Part shown: one piece after another, positions 37,659 through 54,747 of the stretch | How positions within the stretch are numbered: the first letter of the stretch is position 1 | How the letters are laid out: every line of letters starts with the position of its first letter | Assembly (NCBI RefSeq): GCF_000688455.1 | Contig: NZ_JIAL01000001.1 | Coordinates: 3,565,001-3,629,000 of the forward strand | Origin: Pseudacidobacterium ailaaui | GTDB lineage: Bacteria > Acidobacteriota > Terriglobia > Terriglobales > Acidobacteriaceae | Reading direction: 5' to 3' | DNA length: 64,000 nt | The notes under the pieces: generated by a model | The model's input: the letters and a program-made list of their open reading frames with translations, nothing else | Databases searched by the model: none | Told to the model about the DNA's origin: nothing | Translations under genes and position numbers: made by a program

Positions 37659-38315
37659 TTACTGCGGCTGTGAAGCGACGCGCAGATAAGGCTTCACCGT
37701 CCTGTATCCCGGGAAGAGCTTATTTGCTTCTTCATTGGAAACGGCACCGCTGATGATGATGTCCTCGCCCTGCTTCCAGTTGGCCGGGGTAGAGACCTTG
37801 TGTCTGGTGGTGAGCTGGAGAGCATCAATCACGCGCAGAATCTCATCAAAATTGCGGCCCGTGGCCATCGGATAGGAAAGGGTCAGCTTGATGCGCTTAT
37901 CCGGACCGATCACAAAAACAGTACGGACAGGAGCATTATCGGCAGGCGTACGTCCGGCCGCTGTGTCTCCGGCTGAGGCCGGCAGCATGTCATACAGCTT
38001 GGCAATTTTCAGCTCCGGGTCTCCAACCAGAGGATATTTCACCGGATGGCCGCCTACGTCCTCAATGTCCTTTGCCCATTTCTTGTGGTCTTCCACAGAA
38101 TCCACGCTCAGGCCCAGAACTTTTACACCGCGCCGAGCAAACTCATCCTGAAGGCTGGCCACTGCTCCCAATTCGGTAGTGCAGACAGGGGTGAAATCCT
38201 TTGGGTGTGAAAAGAAGATGACCCAGCTGTCTCCAATCCACTCATGAAAGCGGATGGTGCCCTCAGTGGTTTCGGCTGTGAAGTCCGGCGCAATATCGTT
38301 AATACGGAGTGACAT
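37659..38315 (-). CDS. 1-Cys peroxiredoxin (Prx6-type AhpC/TSA)
   Basis: A 218-residue peroxiredoxin that reduces peroxides with one thiol. The peroxidatic Cys45 is in HPKDFTPVCTTELG; it is the only cysteine in the protein, so no resolving cysteine is present. The C-terminal domain (NWKQGEDIIISGAVSNEEANKLFPGY) is typical of the Prx6 branch. The ATG of MSLRIND is preceded by GGGAGAA; the longer open frame runs back through the terminator and is not real. Expression appears controlled by the Cys-rich leader and terminator immediately upstream. Confidence 0.94.
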   Translation of the reverse strand: MSLRINDIAPDFTAETTEGTIRFHEWIGDSWVIFFSHPKDFTPVCTTELGAVASLQDEFARRGVKVLGLSVDSVEDHKKWAKDIEDVGGHPVKYPLVGDPELKIAKLYDMLPASAGDTAAGRTPADNAPVRTVFVIGPDKRIKLTLSYPMATGRNFDEILRVIDALQLTTRHKVSTPANWKQGEDIIISGAVSNEEANKLFPGYRTVKPYLRVASQPQ

Positions 38316-38337
38316 ACGATTCTCCCAATCTTTGTCT

Positions 38338-38377
38338 AAAAATAGAAAACCCACCCGGCAGGTCGCTGCGGGTGGGT
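38338..38377 (-). terminator. intrinsic terminator of the Cys-leader attenuator
   Basis: On the minus strand ACCCACCC-GCA pairs with TGC-C-GGGTGGGT (one bulge), followed by TTTCTATTTTT. It lies between the leader ORF and the peroxiredoxin ribosome binding site. Its 5' arm (38367-38379) is also complementary to the end of the leader ORF, so an antiterminator can form instead. Confidence 0.8.
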
Positions 38378-38399
38378 ATCTGAGCTTGGTTTTTCCGGC

Positions 38400-38480
38400 T
38401 TAGCTCCAGCAATACACCCGCACGGTGCGGCAGCAACAGCAGCAGCAGAGACACATGCAGGTTGGAGCAAGATGTTCCAT
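38400..38480 (-). CDS. poly-cysteine leader peptide of the peroxiredoxin operon
   Basis: A 26-codon ORF beginning MEHLAPTCMCL and ending RTVRVYCWS. Nine of 26 codons are Cys, including six in a row at codons 12-17 (TGC or TGT). The start codon lies 4-5 bases from the predicted transcription start, so no Shine-Dalgarno is possible. Codons 18-23, just after the Cys run, encode RNA that can pair either with itself (38418-38430) or with the terminator 5' arm. This is the layout of an amino-acid attenuator: ribosomes stalled on Cys codons would favour the antiterminator. Mycobacterial leaderless poly-Cys ORFs are a functional parallel. The alternative is that the nascent peptide senses thiol oxidation or metal. 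Confidence 0.8.
   Translation of the reverse strand: MEHLAPTCMCLCCCCCCRTVRVYCWS
38412..38430 (-). promoter_or_regulatory. attenuator segments 1 and 2 inside the leader ORF
   Basis: Segment 1 (CCGCA, 38426-38430) can pair with TGCGG (38418-38422) across a 3-base loop. The longer segment 2, TGCGGGTGTAT (38412-38422), is complementary to the terminator 5' arm ATACCCACCCGCA (38367-38379): 8 perfect pairs, then 3 more after a 2-base bulge. The two pairings exclude each other, and the second excludes the terminator. Confidence 0.7.
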
Positions 38481-38491
38481 TACTGAGTTAG

Positions 38492-38521
38492 ACTATAAGC
38501 GCATACTCCGCATTGTGTCAA
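38492..38521 (-). promoter_or_regulatory. sigma-70-like promoter of the Cys-leader/peroxiredoxin operon
   Basis: TTGACA (38516-38521) and TATAGT (38492-38497) are 18 bases apart on the minus strand. The start point should fall near 38484-38485, only 4-5 bases before the leader ATG at 38480. The insertion sequence ends about 8 bases upstream of the -35 once its target duplication is counted. Confidence 0.78.
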
Positions 38522-38528
38522 ATCTCCC

Positions 38529-38537
38529 TCTGGCCGG
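38529..38537. repeat. left target-site duplication of the IS256-family element
   Basis: TCTGGCCGG, repeated exactly at 39827-39835. A 9-bp duplication fits the 8-9 bp known for IS256-family elements. Confidence 0.85.
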
Positions 38538-39826
38538 GGTGACGTCAAGCTGCTTGTGTAAATACGCGGAGGGTGCGGTTTTTCCATTCCAGATTGAATC
38601 TCTGGAAGATGGAGTAGATGATTCGGTCCACGGACTGCACGTTGACGAAGCAAACCATGGGCCTGGTTCTTCGACGCACTTCGACGAAGCAGCGTTCAAT
38701 GATGTTGGTGGTGCGCAGCTTGCGCCACAGGTGCTTGGGAAAATGGTAGAAGACCAGCAGGTCGGGCAGATCGCGTTCCAGTTGCCGCACCATGGTGGGA
38801 TATTCCCGGCGCCAGCGGCGGCTGAAGGCGCGCGCGGCAGCCTCGGCCTGACGGCGGCTATCGGCCAGATAGATGGCCTGGGCATCCAGCTTGACGGCAT
38901 CATGGTCGCGCTTGCGCACCTTGTCGAGGATATTGCGCATCTTGTGCACCCAGCAGCGTTGATGGGCTACGCGGGGATAGACGGTCTGGATGGCGGCAGC
39001 CAATCCGGGGCAGCCGTCGGTGACGATCAGCAGCAGCTTGTCGCCCTTCAGACCGCGCCGGTAGAGATCCTCAAGCAACGCCTCCCAGTGAGCCTGACCC
39101 TCACCCTGGGTGCGCAGAAAGCCGAGCAGTTGCCGGGTGCCGTCCCGGCGCACGCCGTAGGCCACCAGCATCTGCACATGCTGCCGTCCCGCCGGCCGGC
39201 GCACCTTCAACGCCACGCCATCCAGAAACAGGTAAGCCCATTCGTCCTGCAGGGCGGCTCGATGAAACTCCCGCACCGCCTGATCCAGATCACGCGTCAG
39301 CCGCGAGACGGTCTGGGCACTGATCGTCTCGCCCGTCAAAGTGGCCACCAGCCGACCCACCTGGCGGGTAGAGATGCCGCGCAGAAACGCCTCCCGGATG
39401 AGTATGGCCAGCTCCGGCGCCCGGCGTTGGAACTTCTCCATCGCCCGGGGAAGAAAGCTCTTGCCGCGGGCCCGCGCCACGCGCAGCCGGATGGTGCCGA
39501 AGCGGGTCACAAAATCCCTCTCGTAATAGCCGTTACGGTACTGTCCCGGCTTGCGCGTTCCCCGTTCGTAGCTGTCCCAAACTGCATACTGATCGCGCAA
39601 CCGCTCCGATTCCGCTTCCAGAAATCGCTTCCAGGCCACCTGCGTCTTCTGCTCCAGGTCGCCCCAGAAGCTCTCCTTCAGGTTGGTCAAGAAGTGCTGA
39701 AAATGCTCGGTGATCGATACAATCTTCGCCATGGGTGTAAGGCTCCTTTTCAAGTTCGGCTTTAGCTCGTCAGGCCAAAGCCACCTTACACCCTCCTGCC
39801 TTTTACACAATCGAAGTTACGTCACC
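38538..39826 (-). mobile_element. complete IS256-family insertion sequence
   Basis: A 1289-bp element bounded by imperfect terminal inverted repeats and 9-bp direct repeats. Both ends read GGTGACGT, then after 8 diverged bases TTGTGTAAA, then after 5 more GGAGGGTG (left end 38538 onward; right end read backwards from 39826). TTGTGTAAA is a common core of IS256-family ends. It carries one intact transposase gene on the minus strand, so it may still be active. It is inserted in the last codons of a decayed sigma-factor fragment. Confidence 0.9.
38545..39732 (-). CDS. IS256-family (mutator-type) transposase
   Basis: A 395-residue transposase with the DDE triad in the expected context: LFLDGVALKVR, LLIVTDGCPGLAAAI and TTNIIERCFVEVRRRTR. 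The segment CWVHKMRNILDKVRK after the second Asp is also typical. The start is the ATG of MAKIVSITEHFQ with AAGGAGCC upstream; the frame is open further but runs into the terminal repeat. The gene is full length and uninterrupted. Confidence 0.95.
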   Translation of the reverse strand: MAKIVSITEHFQHFLTNLKESFWGDLEQKTQVAWKRFLEAESERLRDQYAVWDSYERGTRKPGQYRNGYYERDFVTRFGTIRLRVARARGKSFLPRAMEKFQRRAPELAILIREAFLRGISTRQVGRLVATLTGETISAQTVSRLTRDLDQAVREFHRAALQDEWAYLFLDGVALKVRRPAGRQHVQMLVAYGVRRDGTRQLLGFLRTQGEGQAHWEALLEDLYRRGLKGDKLLLIVTDGCPGLAAAIQTVYPRVAHQRCWVHKMRNILDKVRKRDHDAVKLDAQAIYLADSRRQAEAAARAFSRRWRREYPTMVRQLERDLPDLLVFYHFPKHLWRKLRTTNIIERCFVEVRRRTRPMVCFVNVQSVDRIIYSIFQRFNLEWKNRTLRVFTQAA

Positions 39827-39835
39827 TCTGGCCGG
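39827..39835. repeat. right target-site duplication of the IS256-family element
   Basis: TCTGGCCGG, identical to 38529-38537. Confidence 0.85.
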
Positions 39836-42477: not shown

Positions 42478-42674
42478 CGGAACCGCCTCTTGTTCTTTTT
42501 ACTTACTGGTATGTAAGACTTTTCGGCTGTGGAAAAGTCACCTCCAGCATCGCACAGAAAAATGAAATTTTGGAAGATTTGAAGCAAATTCGGGGCCTGC
42601 TCAAGGCCGGACATGAGCAAAAGCTGATGGGTGCCAGGTAGACGGGTGGATTGCCGGAGACATCCAAAGACGGC

Positions 42675-43067
42675 ATGAGCTTCGATCTGTCTCCCTACGT
42701 CAACTGGAGCCTGCTTCTGCTACGTTTCATGGTCGGGATGGTCTTTCTAGCCAGTGGTTTTCTGCATCTGAAGGCACCCGAAGAGCGTGCCAGGAGTATT
42801 GGAATGAGCAAAGGGTTTACCGTCTTTCTGGGTGCAGCTGAGCTTTTGGGCGGCGCAGCCGTCATCGCAGGTGTTCTGACGCAGTGGGCGGCCATCGGCC
42901 TGAATCTGGTTCTGCTCGGGGCAATTTATATGAAAGTCGTGAAGTGGAAAACCGGATTCTGGGGAGAAAAGTCTTCGGGATGGCACTATGATCTGATGTT
43001 CTTTGTCATGAATCTGGTGATTCTGTGCACCAATGGGGGCACCATATCGCTGATGCACGGACGATAA
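42675..43067 (+). CDS. DoxX-family membrane protein
   Basis: A 130-residue protein with four hydrophobic segments and the DoxX pattern: LLLRFMVGMVFLASGFLHL at the start and GAAELLGGAAVIAGVLTQWAAIGL in the middle. DoxX proteins are small quinone-linked or redox-associated membrane proteins of mostly unknown role. The ATG of MSFDLSPYVNW is my choice; a TTG eight codons upstream is an alternative. It ends 84 bases before the lpxD start on the same strand. Confidence 0.82.
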   Translation: MSFDLSPYVNWSLLLLRFMVGMVFLASGFLHLKAPEERARSIGMSKGFTVFLGAAELLGGAAVIAGVLTQWAAIGLNLVLLGAIYMKVVKWKTGFWGEKSSGWHYDLMFFVMNLVILCTNGGTISLMHGR

Positions 43068-51059: not shown

Positions 51060-52844
51060 CTAATACACGTCCCGGTGATAGCGATGGTCTTCTTTCAACT
51101 GCCGGACATATTCTTTCGCGCCTTCCTGGTCCAGGTTTCCATGCCTGGCGACGATGGCGTGCAAAGCTGCATCCACGTCCTTGGCCATACGCGAAGCATC
51201 CCCACAGACATAGAGACTTGCACCATCCTGAAGCCAGGACCAAAACAGTGGCGCGTTCTCCATCATCCTGTCCTGTACATAGACTTTGTGCTCCTGGTCC
51301 CGCGAGAAGGCCGTATCGAGACGGGTGAGATGGCCATCGGCCGCCATGCTTTCCAATTCTTCGCGGTACAGAAAATCATTGGCTGCATTCCGCTCTCCAA
51401 AGAAGAGCCAATTTCGGCCCTTCGCGCCTCGCGCACGGCGTTCGTGCAGAAAGGCACGGAAGGGTGCAATCCCTGTACCAGGGCCAATCATGATGACCGG
51501 GGTATCCGGATCTTCCGGAAGGCGAAACTTCTTATTGGGCTGGATGTAAATCGGCAGCCTTTCGCCGACCGGGACCCGATCTGCAACGAGAGTAGAGCAT
51601 ACGCCGCCGCGCTCGCGGTTCAGGGAACGGTACCGGACCACGGCAATCGTGGTATGTACTTCGCCTGTATGCACGGATGGGCTGGACGAGATCGAATAAA
51701 GTCGGGGGGTAAGCCGGGGCAGCATTTCCACCAGCTCTGACGGATGATGGATGACGCCGGGACATTCTTCCAGAATGTCGATCAGTCCACGCTCGTAAAC
51801 GTATTGCTCCAGATGCGATTGCTGTTCGGGGGCGAGAAGGGCGAGAAGCCGCTTGCACTGGCCCATTTTGGCATAGCGCTCAATCAGCTTGCGGTTTAGA
51901 CGGGTGATGACCAGGTATTTTTCCAGTGCCTTCTTCAAAGGCATGGCACCGGCTTTGGACAACTCCACCTGCTCTTCTCCGCTGAAGCGCAGTAAGTTAA
52001 GGATTTCTTCTACCAGAACGGGATCATTGTGTGGGATGATGCCGCAGGCGTCGCCGGGCTCATATCGAATACCAGACTCGGCAATCGACCAAGTAAGATG
52101 CAGCGTGAGTTTTGTCGAACCGTTGCGTGTGAGCGGACGCTTTTCCTTAAGCGGAGCAAGATAAGGATGCTCACGTGTGGCCGCAGCCGATGATACGGGA
52201 GCTGCCATGGCAATCGAGGGAGGCAGCACCGGCGAGGCAGGAGGAAGAGAATCAGGCGGCTCTTCTTTGGAGATGGCTTCCAGACGCCGGAACAATTGCT
52301 CCTTCCATGCTGCAAAAGGGCCGTCGATTTCGACATCGCACTCGACCCGGTCCAGAATCCGGGTAGCACCGAGAGAAGCCAGCTTGTTGTCAAGATCAAT
52401 CCCGAATTTACAGAACGTCTCATAGTGGCGGTCTCCAAGGGCGAAGACGGCATACTGCAAATTCTCATATCGAGGAAAGTGCTCGACACAGACCTGCTCA
52501 TAGAAAAATTGTGCGCTATCCGGGGCCTCTCCCTGGCCATAAGTGCTGGCAATAAAGATGGCGTACCGCTCGGCTGCAAGAGCGGCGGAGGTATAGGCCT
52601 CCAGGGATGTCAGAGTTGCATCGAAACCTTTGCTCTTCAGGTCCTTTGTCAGCTTGCGCGCCAGCCCTTCTGCTGTTCCGGTCTGCGAGGCATAAAAGAC
52701 GGAGATCTTCAGCGGTGCGGGCTTTACTGCAATTTCCTTTGCGGGCGCACTCGAAAACATTCCGGCCAGAAAACCGTTCAGCCATGCGCGCTGTTCTTTT
52801 GAAAATGGTGCATCGTCGGGAACAAATGGGACCATCTGTGTCAT
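51060..52844 (-). CDS. CysJ-like diflavin reductase of the nitrite/sulfite reductase
   Basis: A 594-residue flavoprotein with a flavodoxin domain (about residues 45-190: FYASQTGTAEGLA, STYGQGEAPDSA) and an FNR-type FAD/NADPH domain (PRLYSISSSP, GGVCSTLVAD, MIGPGTGIAPFRAF, LYVCGDASRMAKDV, ending in VY). It should pass NADPH electrons to the siroheme enzyme encoded 6 bases upstream. The first 30 residues (FSKEQRAWLNGFLAG) resemble the start of that partner. Both sulfite and nitrite reduction are possible; the gene neighbourhood points to nitrite. Confidence 0.9.
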   Translation of the reverse strand: MTQMVPFVPDDAPFSKEQRAWLNGFLAGMFSSAPAKEIAVKPAPLKISVFYASQTGTAEGLARKLTKDLKSKGFDATLTSLEAYTSAALAAERYAIFIASTYGQGEAPDSAQFFYEQVCVEHFPRYENLQYAVFALGDRHYETFCKFGIDLDNKLASLGATRILDRVECDVEIDGPFAAWKEQLFRRLEAISKEEPPDSLPPASPVLPPSIAMAAPVSSAAATREHPYLAPLKEKRPLTRNGSTKLTLHLTWSIAESGIRYEPGDACGIIPHNDPVLVEEILNLLRFSGEEQVELSKAGAMPLKKALEKYLVITRLNRKLIERYAKMGQCKRLLALLAPEQQSHLEQYVYERGLIDILEECPGVIHHPSELVEMLPRLTPRLYSISSSPSVHTGEVHTTIAVVRYRSLNRERGGVCSTLVADRVPVGERLPIYIQPNKKFRLPEDPDTPVIMIGPGTGIAPFRAFLHERRARGAKGRNWLFFGERNAANDFLYREELESMAADGHLTRLDTAFSRDQEHKVYVQDRMMENAPLFWSWLQDGASLYVCGDASRMAKDVDAALHAIVARHGNLDQEGAKEYVRQLKEDHRYHRDVY

Positions 52845-52850
52845 TCTGGT

Positions 52851-54629
52851 TTAAACCGCCCTTTCTATACAGAATGATTGGAGTGTTTGAACGTCGTGCC
52901 TCCGGGTGAAGGAGAGAAAGGACTCGCCCGGAGTGCGCCGCTCAAGATAGGCTCGAAACAACCGTTCCATCACTGCAGGCAGATCGCTGGCTTTGATGGC
53001 CGGAACCAATTCGCGGGCCAGCCCCTGAGTATCATCGGCCCCGCCGCCAATGACTACCTGATATCCTTCCTCGCCCTCGACCCTGGTTCCGAGAAGTCCG
53101 ATGTCTCCGATATAGTGCTGGGCGCAGGAGTGGGGGCAGCCGGTAACATGCAGATTCACCGGCTGCTCGATGACAAAGCGCTCATCCAGATAATTGGCCA
53201 GCTCGACCGCATGGCGTTTGGTATCGGTAGCAGCATAACGACAACCTTGATTTCCTGTGCAGGCCACGGTGCCGCGCAAAACGGTGCCTGCGGAAACCTT
53301 CAGCCCTGCTGCATGGATGGCCTCCAGGGCGGCCTCCACATCATTGGTACGAATATTGGGAAGAATCAGGTTCTGCCAGACCGTCAATCGCATCTCTCCG
53401 CTGCCGAAGCGGTCTGCAATGTCAGCCAGGGCGCGCATCTGGCCAACAGGCAGCCTGCCCACGGGGACGGAAATGCCGATATAGTGCAGTCCTGGCTGCT
53501 TTTGGGGATGAACACCGAGATGACCCGCGCGATCGATTGGCTTACGGGGCAAACATTTTTCCGCCGGAAACCGCAGCAGGGGAAAAGCGAGCAGCTTTTC
53601 GGTCTCTTGAAGAAACCGCTCAACGCCCCAGCGGTCTACCAAATACTTGAGCCGGGCCTTCTTACGGTCTGTACGGTCTCCGTTTGCAATGAAAACGCGG
53701 ACCATGGCCGCGGCCACCGCAACTGTCTGCTCTGGCGTCAGCAGCAGACCACAATCGGCAGCGAATTGTTTGTGCCCGGTGATTCCGCAGAGCAGAGTAC
53801 GGAAGTAGACGCCGGCCGGAACATCCTTTCCCTCCTCCACCCTGGTAGCGACAAAACCGATGTCATTCGTATCGGCCAGCACACTGAGTGATCCGCCATT
53901 ATCGAAAGCCACGTTAAACTTGCGCGGGAGACCATAGAGATCGCGCGAGTTGAGAATGTAGAAATGCAAAGCATCGGCCAGCGGACCAACATCGTACAGC
54001 TCGTCAGGATCAATCCCGGTGAGAGGCGATGCCGTGATGTTACGGATGTTGTCTGCGCCGGATCCACGGGAGGTCAACCCGAGACTTTGCAGCTTCATGA
54101 GCACGCGGACAATATCTTTTGGCTGGAATTCGCGGATCTGAATGTTGCCGCGCGTCGTTATGTCGGCGCGTCCTGAACCCCAATCGGCGGCCATCTCCGC
54201 AAGACCACGCATCTGATGGGACCGCAGAATGCAGCCAGGAATCCGCAGACGCAACATGAAGGAGTCCTGCGCTGGAGCAACATAAAACAACCCATGAAAT
54301 TTAAAGCGGAAGACATCACCCCCGGCAGGGGGCCGGTTCTCGCGGGCGTGTTCGAGAATCTTGTCCCAAATATCGAGGGGATTTTCTTCATATTTCAGCC
54401 GTTCTTCCTTGCACAGGTCCGCGATGGGAGTGCCGAACCAAGTTTCTTCCTCGGGCTCGGCGGCCTGGTTTGAGCCACCCGACCCAGGATCGTGTGTCAT
54501 CAGCCCAGTTGGGGTCTGACCAACATAAGGAAGCTTGCCGCGCTGCATGACTCCCGCAAAAAATCCCTGGAGATAAAACTTCTGCTCCTCTGTAAAATCA
54601 ACTGCCGGAGAAAACGTCCCTGTTGCCAT
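52851..54629 (-). CDS. siroheme nitrite/sulfite reductase (NirA/CysI type)
   Basis: A 592-residue hemoprotein with two ferredoxin-like half-domains and the siroheme/4Fe-4S site: VACTGNQGCRYA and VTGCPHSCAQHYIGDIGLLG supply the four cysteines. Segments RGNIQIREFQP and MRLTVWQNLILPNI are the two sulfite/nitrite reductase half-domain motifs. It reduces nitrite to ammonia (or sulfite to sulfide) by six electrons. The start MATGTFSPAVDF is supported by AAGGA upstream; the frame is open to 54740. CysJ-like and nitrate reductase genes follow, so nitrite is the likely substrate. Confidence 0.9.
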   Translation of the reverse strand: MATGTFSPAVDFTEEQKFYLQGFFAGVMQRGKLPYVGQTPTGLMTHDPGSGGSNQAAEPEEETWFGTPIADLCKEERLKYEENPLDIWDKILEHARENRPPAGGDVFRFKFHGLFYVAPAQDSFMLRLRIPGCILRSHQMRGLAEMAADWGSGRADITTRGNIQIREFQPKDIVRVLMKLQSLGLTSRGSGADNIRNITASPLTGIDPDELYDVGPLADALHFYILNSRDLYGLPRKFNVAFDNGGSLSVLADTNDIGFVATRVEEGKDVPAGVYFRTLLCGITGHKQFAADCGLLLTPEQTVAVAAAMVRVFIANGDRTDRKKARLKYLVDRWGVERFLQETEKLLAFPLLRFPAEKCLPRKPIDRAGHLGVHPQKQPGLHYIGISVPVGRLPVGQMRALADIADRFGSGEMRLTVWQNLILPNIRTNDVEAALEAIHAAGLKVSAGTVLRGTVACTGNQGCRYAATDTKRHAVELANYLDERFVIEQPVNLHVTGCPHSCAQHYIGDIGLLGTRVEGEEGYQVVIGGGADDTQGLARELVPAIKASDLPAVMERLFRAYLERRTPGESFLSFTRRHDVQTLQSFCIERAV

Positions 54630-54729
54630 GACAGAAATCCTTGTTAAGAGATGAATGTGAGTTCGCCAGATGGAACTGCCGTTCAGTGCTCTTCGCGGAG
54701 CGTGAGAAATTTTCGAGGATTTTCTGCCA

Positions 54730-54747
54730 TGGCACGGCATGGTGCCA
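54730..54747 (-). other. 6-bp hairpin with hexaloop upstream of the nitrite reductase gene
   Basis: TGGCAC and GTGCCA enclose a 6-base loop (CATGCC on the minus strand). It is one of two hairpins in the 196-base gap before the reductase gene; a regulatory role is possible. Confidence 0.45.

Follow-up and report, generated by a model that had tools for sequence, protein, structure and literature searches.

A putative cysteine attenuator upstream of a 1-Cys peroxiredoxin gene in Acidobacteriota

The window, that is, the whole stretch of 64,000 nucleotides of Pseudacidobacterium ailaaui DNA analyzed here, contains a gene for a 218-residue peroxiredoxin (37659–38315; minus strand, as are all parts of the locus described in this and the next paragraph). 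The protein contains the AhpC-TSA, Redoxin, and 1-cysPrx_C domains, which meets the criterion for a Prx6, or 1-Cys, peroxiredoxin, and its relatives in the PDB include Prx6 chains. The ATG is at 38315, and a Shine-Dalgarno sequence, GGGAGA (38321–38326), is found closely 5' of it. Further upstream, a sigma70-type promoter, TTGACA-18-TATAGT (38492–38521; 11 of 12 matches), is followed by a leader open reading frame (ORF) of 26 codons and a stop (38400–38480; MEHLAPTCMCLCCCCCCRTVRVYCWS). Nine of its codons specify cysteine, and six of these are consecutive (38430–38447) and constitute the proposed stall site. The leader start codon is 11 nt past the −10 hexamer; judging from this spacing, the 5' untranslated region would be only a few nucleotides long, with the transcription start site itself being a prediction.

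Between the leader and the Shine-Dalgarno sequence there is an intrinsic terminator with a U tract (ACCCACCC...GGGTGGGTTTTCTATTTTT; 38338–38377), formed by segments 3 and 4. It is the last hairpin in the predicted fold of 38340–38485, the energy of which is 3 standard deviations below that of dinucleotide shuffles (2 of 200 were as stable). Segment 3 (38367–38379) is a potential partner of segment 4 or of segment 2 (38412–38422), the 5' half of an antiterminator, which lies within the leader ORF: TGCGGGTG (38422–38415) is complementary to CACCCGCA (38374–38367) over 8 pairs and, past a 2-nt bulge, 38414–38412 can form 3 more pairs with 38379–38377. The sequence CCGCACCGTGCGG (38418–38430) could form a 1:2 (anti-antiterminator) hairpin. 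A first-pass annotation, made from the sequence alone, had claimed the promoter, the almost leaderless poly-cysteine ORF, the pairing of its end with the terminator 5' arm, the terminator, the ribosome binding site, and the 1-Cys peroxiredoxin, and each of these was recovered; its competing hairpin was confirmed only insofar as the sequence is present. A search of 38200–38700 against Rfam returned a single match, to the S15 leader, which was dismissed because it scored 15 bits against a cutoff of 39.5.

An insertion of the IS256 family (38538–39826, minus strand), with imperfect inverted ends and flanked on both sides by the 9-bp repeat CCGGCCAGA (38529–38537 and 39827–39835), lies outside the attenuator. 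The possibility that this element donated the promoter was rejected: the −35 hexamer is separated by 16 nt from the end of the element and by 7 nt from the target duplication, both of which lie upstream of it. As neither reaches into the promoter, the promoter is native. Four other places in the genome match the end of the element over 23 to 25 nt. A separate 138-residue ORF in the window (42651–43067, plus strand) seems, by eye, to be the counterpart of the gene located directly before the leader in a congener (genome G001, locus L007), and the neighborhood may therefore be rearranged in the window genome.

The comparison drew on 61 related genomes, 42 of which had a peroxiredoxin match at E ≤ 1e-40, and on 120 members of the family, 65 of which had one at E ≤ 1e-60; the DNA upstream of the matches was fetched. 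A rule-based caller, which requires a dense-cysteine upstream ORF (uORF) plus a terminator in the upstream region, was given 90 loci, and the peroxiredoxin motif was readable in 89, with one locus having only 124 nt upstream. Both parts were detected before 45 of the 89 related acidobacterial peroxiredoxin genes (for example, MTHMCCCCCCCCDRQPMCG in L121, MRQHSMPSALCCCTWTPVCG in L017, and MNHTAPTCMCLCCCCRCCTMRVCS in L075). Read on the reverse strand, the same loci gave 0 of 89, and dinucleotide-shuffled upstream regions gave 9 of 1,780. Thus, according to the caller, about half of the peroxiredoxin relatives lack the leader; leaders that it missed were seen by eye in L007, L013, L077, L081, L102, L105, and L134. 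Four peroxiredoxin loci (L082, L089, L090, and L104) have kept the cysteine uORF without the terminator 3' arm; regulation of these may depend on Rho or may have disappeared. In 80 peroxiredoxin loci from named genomes, mostly of other phyla by title, the caller found two cases, both acidobacterial (4 of 1,600 shuffles were positive). Ten of the others among these 80 loci were read by eye: the element is present in L134, which is the locus of Terriglobus albidus DSM 26559, and in L138, and L133 has a short cysteine uORF without a terminator. The element occurs in two peroxiredoxin lineages that are approximately 45% identical to each other. A search of 396 genomes of the phylum with model R1 gave matches in 23, several of which were terminator-only and were dropped on reading; all cysteine leaders of the expected layout in this search precede peroxiredoxin genes. 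In the window genome itself, five TGY codons in a row were matched 10 times at nine sites (two matches overlap at the peroxiredoxin site), and the peroxiredoxin site is the only one where the stop-to-stop frame is shorter than 50 residues.

The peroxiredoxin gene is not the only target. The window genome contains a second poly-cysteine leader (MIHSFTFPVMCCACCCARAGLVSE, then a stop codon) with a terminator, and its stop lies 94 nt before a gene for a NirA-like protein with an NIR_SIR domain. Next comes a gene that resembles, and is identified only by its resemblance to, the siroheme synthase gene of L375. In NCBIfam, the NIR_SIR reductases match the NirA family best, though with scores under its cutoff, and they also fall below the cutoffs of the sulfite reductase models; our reading of them as sulfite reductases rests on the poly-cysteine leader and the siroheme neighbor, and the family matches leave nitrite versus sulfite unsettled. 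R2, a covariance model of the peroxiredoxin leaders, matched 28 of 299 genomes of the class (Terriglobia), some of them at terminators only; outside the peroxiredoxins, it pointed to NIR_SIR proteins in f5 and f7 and, in family f8, to a TauE permease. Among the NIR_SIR genes of other families that are most similar to the query, 27 of 30 could be scored, leaving 3 unscored, and 18 of the 27 have a leader. At 23 further NIR_SIR loci, comprising those 3 and 20 others, no leader was found in the 18 that could be scored (5 were unscored; L287 has a CC-containing uORF without a terminator). With model R3, leaders later turned up ahead of some NIR_SIR genes that are more distant (L362, L372, L374, and L386). 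Within the window's own family, the NIR_SIR gene was located in 30 of 41 genomes, and 17 of these 30 loci have a leader plus a terminator.

Model R3 was built from the NIR_SIR and TauE leaders and matched 152 of 349 genomes of the class, in up to six places per genome. We read the best 30 loci, 14 of which are training places, and 40 others picked among the matches listed outside the training set; the resulting list of targets is not a census. At least three cysteines within eight leader codons were found in 29 of the best 30 loci and in 33 of the 40 others. Because R3 was trained on cysteine leaders, part of this enrichment is built in, but the downstream genes played no role in the training. 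The ten downstream proteins that were scanned include CysD (L403; a partial match below the cutoff in L389), rhodanese-type sulfurtransferases (L390 and L412), a sulfate-binding protein (L404), an SsuA-family sulfonate-binding protein (L406), TauE (L400), siroheme synthase (L375), a TonB-receptor-like protein (L380), and an aspartate kinase (L417). The remaining 7 of the 40 loci comprise L387, which has a weaker cysteine leader, and six loci before aspartokinase-type ORFs, of which only L417 was scanned. All six have similar terminators. Four of them (L411, L414, L417, and L419) have a threonine-rich uORF, such as MSTTSTTTTSTILASGAWRNS, and are probably threonine attenuators of the same design; the uORF of L410 is not clearly threonine-rich, and none was read in L415. 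Codon and pathway thus seem to match, with the peroxiredoxin in the cysteine set.

Some expected places were empty. When R2 and R3 were run on the window genome at relaxed thresholds, the peroxiredoxin element was recovered and the NIR_SIR leader was missed, which shows that the models do not provide a census. The cysS gene was rejected as a target, as the caller detected no leader in any of 19 cysS upstream regions (three have a CC-containing uORF without a terminator). No poly-cysteine uORF was seen in the 460 bases read upstream of the window's NirA-family gene that scores above the family cutoff and is located beside a CysJ-like flavoprotein gene (51060–54740, minus strand). Near an R2 match on the minus strand of L232, a leader-like ORF with many Trp, Tyr, and Phe codons is followed by a terminator and an ORF that looks like a DAHP synthase gene; it is possibly an aromatic attenuator.

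How translation of the leaders begins can be approached from promoter spacing. A permissive search that allowed all in-frame starts detected a promoter-like match in 57 of the 58 peroxiredoxin leaders used in the stall model below (39 score at least 9 of 12), and in these 57 the start codon is a median of 9 nt past the −10 hexamer. A Shine-Dalgarno-like string precedes only 4 leaders. This spacing and the scarcity of Shine-Dalgarno sequences fit leaderless or near-leaderless translation, with all transcription starts being predicted. Cysteine codon choice is less uniform. In 19 NIR_SIR leaders, UGU accounts for 78 of 98 cysteine codons, but for only 22 of 219 in the genes that these leaders precede. 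This bias points to decoding rather than to peptide chemistry where it holds. Peroxiredoxin leaders of group B have 80 UGU and 24 UGC codons. However, the signature is absent from the window's clade (24 UGU and 55 UGC, i.e., 55 of 79), and the window leader itself has TGC at 7 of its 9 cysteine codons, which counts against the codon argument there.

If segments 2 and 3 form an antiterminator, each leader should pair better with its own terminator arm than with others. For 56 leaders, the mean energy of the 2:3 duplex is −18.9 kcal/mol for cognate partners, −16.2 kcal/mol for partners from other loci, and −14.8 kcal/mol for shuffled segment 2, and none of 20,000 permutations in a swap test reached the observed sum. 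None of 10,000 permutations did so when the test was stratified within four groups, where the signal is carried by group B (1 of 10,000) and group F2 (2 of 10,000). Taken alone, the window's group A (2,345 of 10,000) and group E (1,762 of 10,000) are not significant, and stratification does not remove kinship inside the groups. Permutations within families of NIR_SIR leaders gave 1 of 10,000 for f5/f7 and 28 of 10,000 for f1 (15 leaders each). In alignment A4, which contains 22 group B sequences, 81.8% of antiterminator cells and 96.0% of terminator cells are paired, compared with 35.2 to 46.2% and 29.3 to 54.5%, respectively, when the partners are slid. Many leaders in this alignment have a U-rich stretch between the stop codon and the terminator (columns 43–55).

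The first-pass annotation had proposed an alignment of orthologous loci in search of compensatory changes and named the lack of a conserved leader or pairing as grounds for refutation. The outcome does not refute it, as the leader, the terminator, and the 2:3 pairing are all conserved, and individual compensatory examples exist. In L085, for example, GCCAG faces CTGGC, whereas GCCGG faces CCGGC in most of its group, and several f1 NIR_SIR leaders have CTGGCG/CGCCAG versus CCGGCG/CGTCGG in several f5/f7 leaders. These changes may be single events. However, in A4, the one well-aligned group, pairwise covariation does not exceed shuffles, either for the terminator or for the antiterminator (209 of 500 shuffles reach the score), the columns of which hardly vary.

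To model the effect of ribosome position, the RNA was folded from a point 13 nt after the first base of the codon in the A site as far as the beginning of segment 4. The 58 peroxiredoxin leaders used here were preselected for having a leader and a terminator, so they test pairing and not frequency; L013 and L102 were added by hand, and L007 and L134, although seen by eye, were left out. The mean probability that segment 3 is paired with upstream RNA is predicted to be 0.74 for a ribosome at the run's first codon, 0.13 for one at the stop codon, and 0.51 for ribosome-free RNA; for the window leader, the values are 0.64, 0.01, and 0.63. The difference between the first two states is at least 0.3 in 50 of 58 leaders, compared with 227 of 580 controls made by shuffling the sequence between the run and the terminator. 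The claim that stalling at the cysteine codons frees segment 2 thus stands in the model, which favors antitermination upon stalling in these 50 leaders, albeit only in silico. Another 35 leaders (34 NIR_SIR and one TauE) gave 0.70, 0.20, and 0.49, with 32 of 35 passing the same difference test versus 94 of 350 controls. In the complete RNA at equilibrium, the terminator is favored on average in every ribosome state, and the switch must therefore be kinetic. Several group A leaders in alignment A5 have a GAGC...GCTC hairpin in a longer spacer, and this hairpin may bring segments 2 and 3 together.

We consider it very probable that this element is a trp-type, ribosome-mediated attenuator that reads the supply of cysteinyl-tRNA and that it belongs to a cysteine/sulfur regulon of the class, with the peroxiredoxin as one target. 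The parts, their conservation, their complementarity, and the companion targets were all observed in silico, without experiment. A short leader ORF with a run of codons for one amino acid is present, as is an intrinsic terminator between leader and gene (by sequence and fold), and the antiterminator that uses the terminator 5' arm would be exposed, in silico, by a stall in the run. The codon run fits the pathway of the companion targets; the peroxiredoxin is not itself a cysteine-making enzyme. As we infer it, RNA polymerase would begin a few nucleotides before the leader ATG, and a ribosome would load at or near the 5' end. When charged Cys-tRNA is ample, the ribosome would pass the cysteine codons, reach the stop, and mask segment 2, allowing the 3:4 terminator to form. 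When it is scarce, the ribosome is predicted to stall in the run, leaving segment 2, just downstream, free to capture segment 3 while segment 4 has yet to be synthesized; transcription would then continue into the peroxiredoxin gene. Stalling, dependence on cysteine, and the direction of control are likewise inferred. The cysteine attenuator proposed in the first-pass annotation is supported and is strengthened by the second element in the same genome and the sulfur genes of the class; there are no data on expression, termination, or stalling.

Several other explanations deserve consideration. Attenuation could be translational or Rho-dependent, as proposed for the mycobacterial poly-cysteine leaders, with the hairpin being secondary. 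The near-leaderless poly-cysteine design is similar, and the four peroxiredoxin leaders that keep the uORF and have lost the terminator 3' arm would agree with such a mechanism. We regard it as unlikely, however, because the locus has an intrinsic terminator between leader and gene, the peroxiredoxin Shine-Dalgarno sequence is downstream of that terminator, and the complement of the leader end is the terminator arm. A switch of opposite sign, in which stalling on the cysteine codons promotes termination, seems very improbable: segment 2 is downstream of the run and would be covered with the ribosome at the stop codon, and no evidence in favor of this sign was found.

It is also conceivable that the signal is not Cys-tRNA but an oxidant or a metal, sensed by the nascent cysteine-rich peptide, which would then halt the ribosome or let it go, as in a copper-type uORF. 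That the target is an antioxidant enzyme would suit such a sensor, and a copper-responsive uORF with a CXXC motif, CruR, does exist, according to the portion of the source available to us (PMC9426467). Yet the number and spacing of cysteines vary widely among the leaders, the UGU bias of the NIR_SIR leaders points elsewhere, the companion targets checked are mostly sulfur genes, and a similar layout is found with threonine-rich leaders before aspartokinase-type genes; nor is the 26-codon leader, with its cysteine runs of variable number, a DUF2946-type protein with an invariant CXXC, which is the mark of CruR. We therefore judge a peptide sensor to be quite improbable. Finally, a constitutive terminator of an upstream transcript next to a chance cysteine-rich ORF is barely conceivable. 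TGY repeats do occur elsewhere in the genome, at the nine sites described above, but the conservation in 45 of 89 loci versus the reverse-strand and shuffle controls contradicts chance, as far as sequence can tell, and a near-consensus promoter lies directly before the leader.

With trp-type attenuation by cysteinyl-tRNA as the preferred reading, the locus would be part of an acidobacterial regulon in which transcription attenuation is specific for cysteine and uses intrinsic terminators, and it would place a detoxifying enzyme directly under a tRNA-charging switch, the coupling being a short, mutable RNA. Cells probably switch on peroxide defense when cysteine is scarce, which is inferred and has no experimental support. 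The signal may be sulfur shortage alone or also oxidation of the cysteine pool. A tentative extension, which we find possible though doubtful, is that much of the cysteine regulon is run by near-leaderless poly-cysteine attenuators and that the one at the peroxiredoxin gene acts as a sensor of oxidative stress made of RNA only: peroxide or disulfide stress would cut free cysteine or Cys-tRNA charging even with ample sulfur, and the resulting stall of the leader ribosome would directly increase peroxide defense.

In trp-type attenuation, the leader contains a run of codons for the relevant amino acid, segment 2 lies at the end of the ORF, and the 2:3 and 3:4 pairings are mutually exclusive. The element described here shares all of these properties and differs in its predicted near-leaderless start, in cysteine as the amino acid, and in having one target that is not biosynthetic. 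Mycobacteria reportedly have polycysteine leaderless uORFs, a description attributed to Canestrari in 2020. From the accessible parts of the sources, cysteine leader peptides were predicted in Actinobacteria, without conserved terminator hairpins in Mycobacterium (PMC1262725), and mycobacterial cysteine-rich uORFs were found (PMC4633059). These uORFs resemble ours in being short, near-leaderless (in our case judging from promoter spacing), endowed with a cysteine codon run, and located upstream of sulfur or cysteine genes. The promoter spacing here fits a start at the transcription start without a Shine-Dalgarno sequence, as in the mycobacterial type, the start site being only predicted. In contrast, the absence of an intrinsic terminator, which characterizes that type as far as the available text of PMC1262725 goes, does not apply here, where an intrinsic terminator and an antiterminator are combined with another phylum and a peroxiredoxin target.

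In Rhodobacterales (Alphaproteobacteria), uORFC-8-2 is a predicted cysteine attenuator of cysS (PMC8632094, available in part). It is similar in having a uORF with tandem cysteine codons and an intrinsic terminator; however, it has two tandem cysteine codons and, in the part available, is described only upstream of cysS, whereas our element precedes a peroxiredoxin gene and was called at none of the 19 cysS genes. From the same partial source, the PBC-28-3 motif found upstream of AhpC-like genes is a long stem adjoining the start codon, a structure different from that of the peroxiredoxin attenuator.

A physiological parallel exists in Pseudomonas, where the 1-Cys Prx6 protein LsfA is strongly induced under sulfur starvation (PMC12581299 and PMC4199769, both available in part). 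This is the same kind of protein (the sequences were not compared) in the same physiological grouping with sulfur scavenging, and it offers a reason why a peroxiredoxin would be a target: a similar output would be achieved here via RNA alone. The regulation of lsfA, in contrast, is described at the promoter, to which OxyR binds, and the portions of the two papers available to us mention no attenuator. A search of the open-access literature returned no report of such a regulon or of a peroxiredoxin attenuator; subscription papers were mostly not covered, and absence is therefore unproven. The kind of element is already known, as cysteine-codon attenuators have been reported or predicted in mycobacteria and at cysS of Rhodobacterales. 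As far as we have searched, the novelty lies in the phylum and the regulon, in the joint presence of a near-leaderless start and an intrinsic terminator, and in having a peroxiredoxin as a target.
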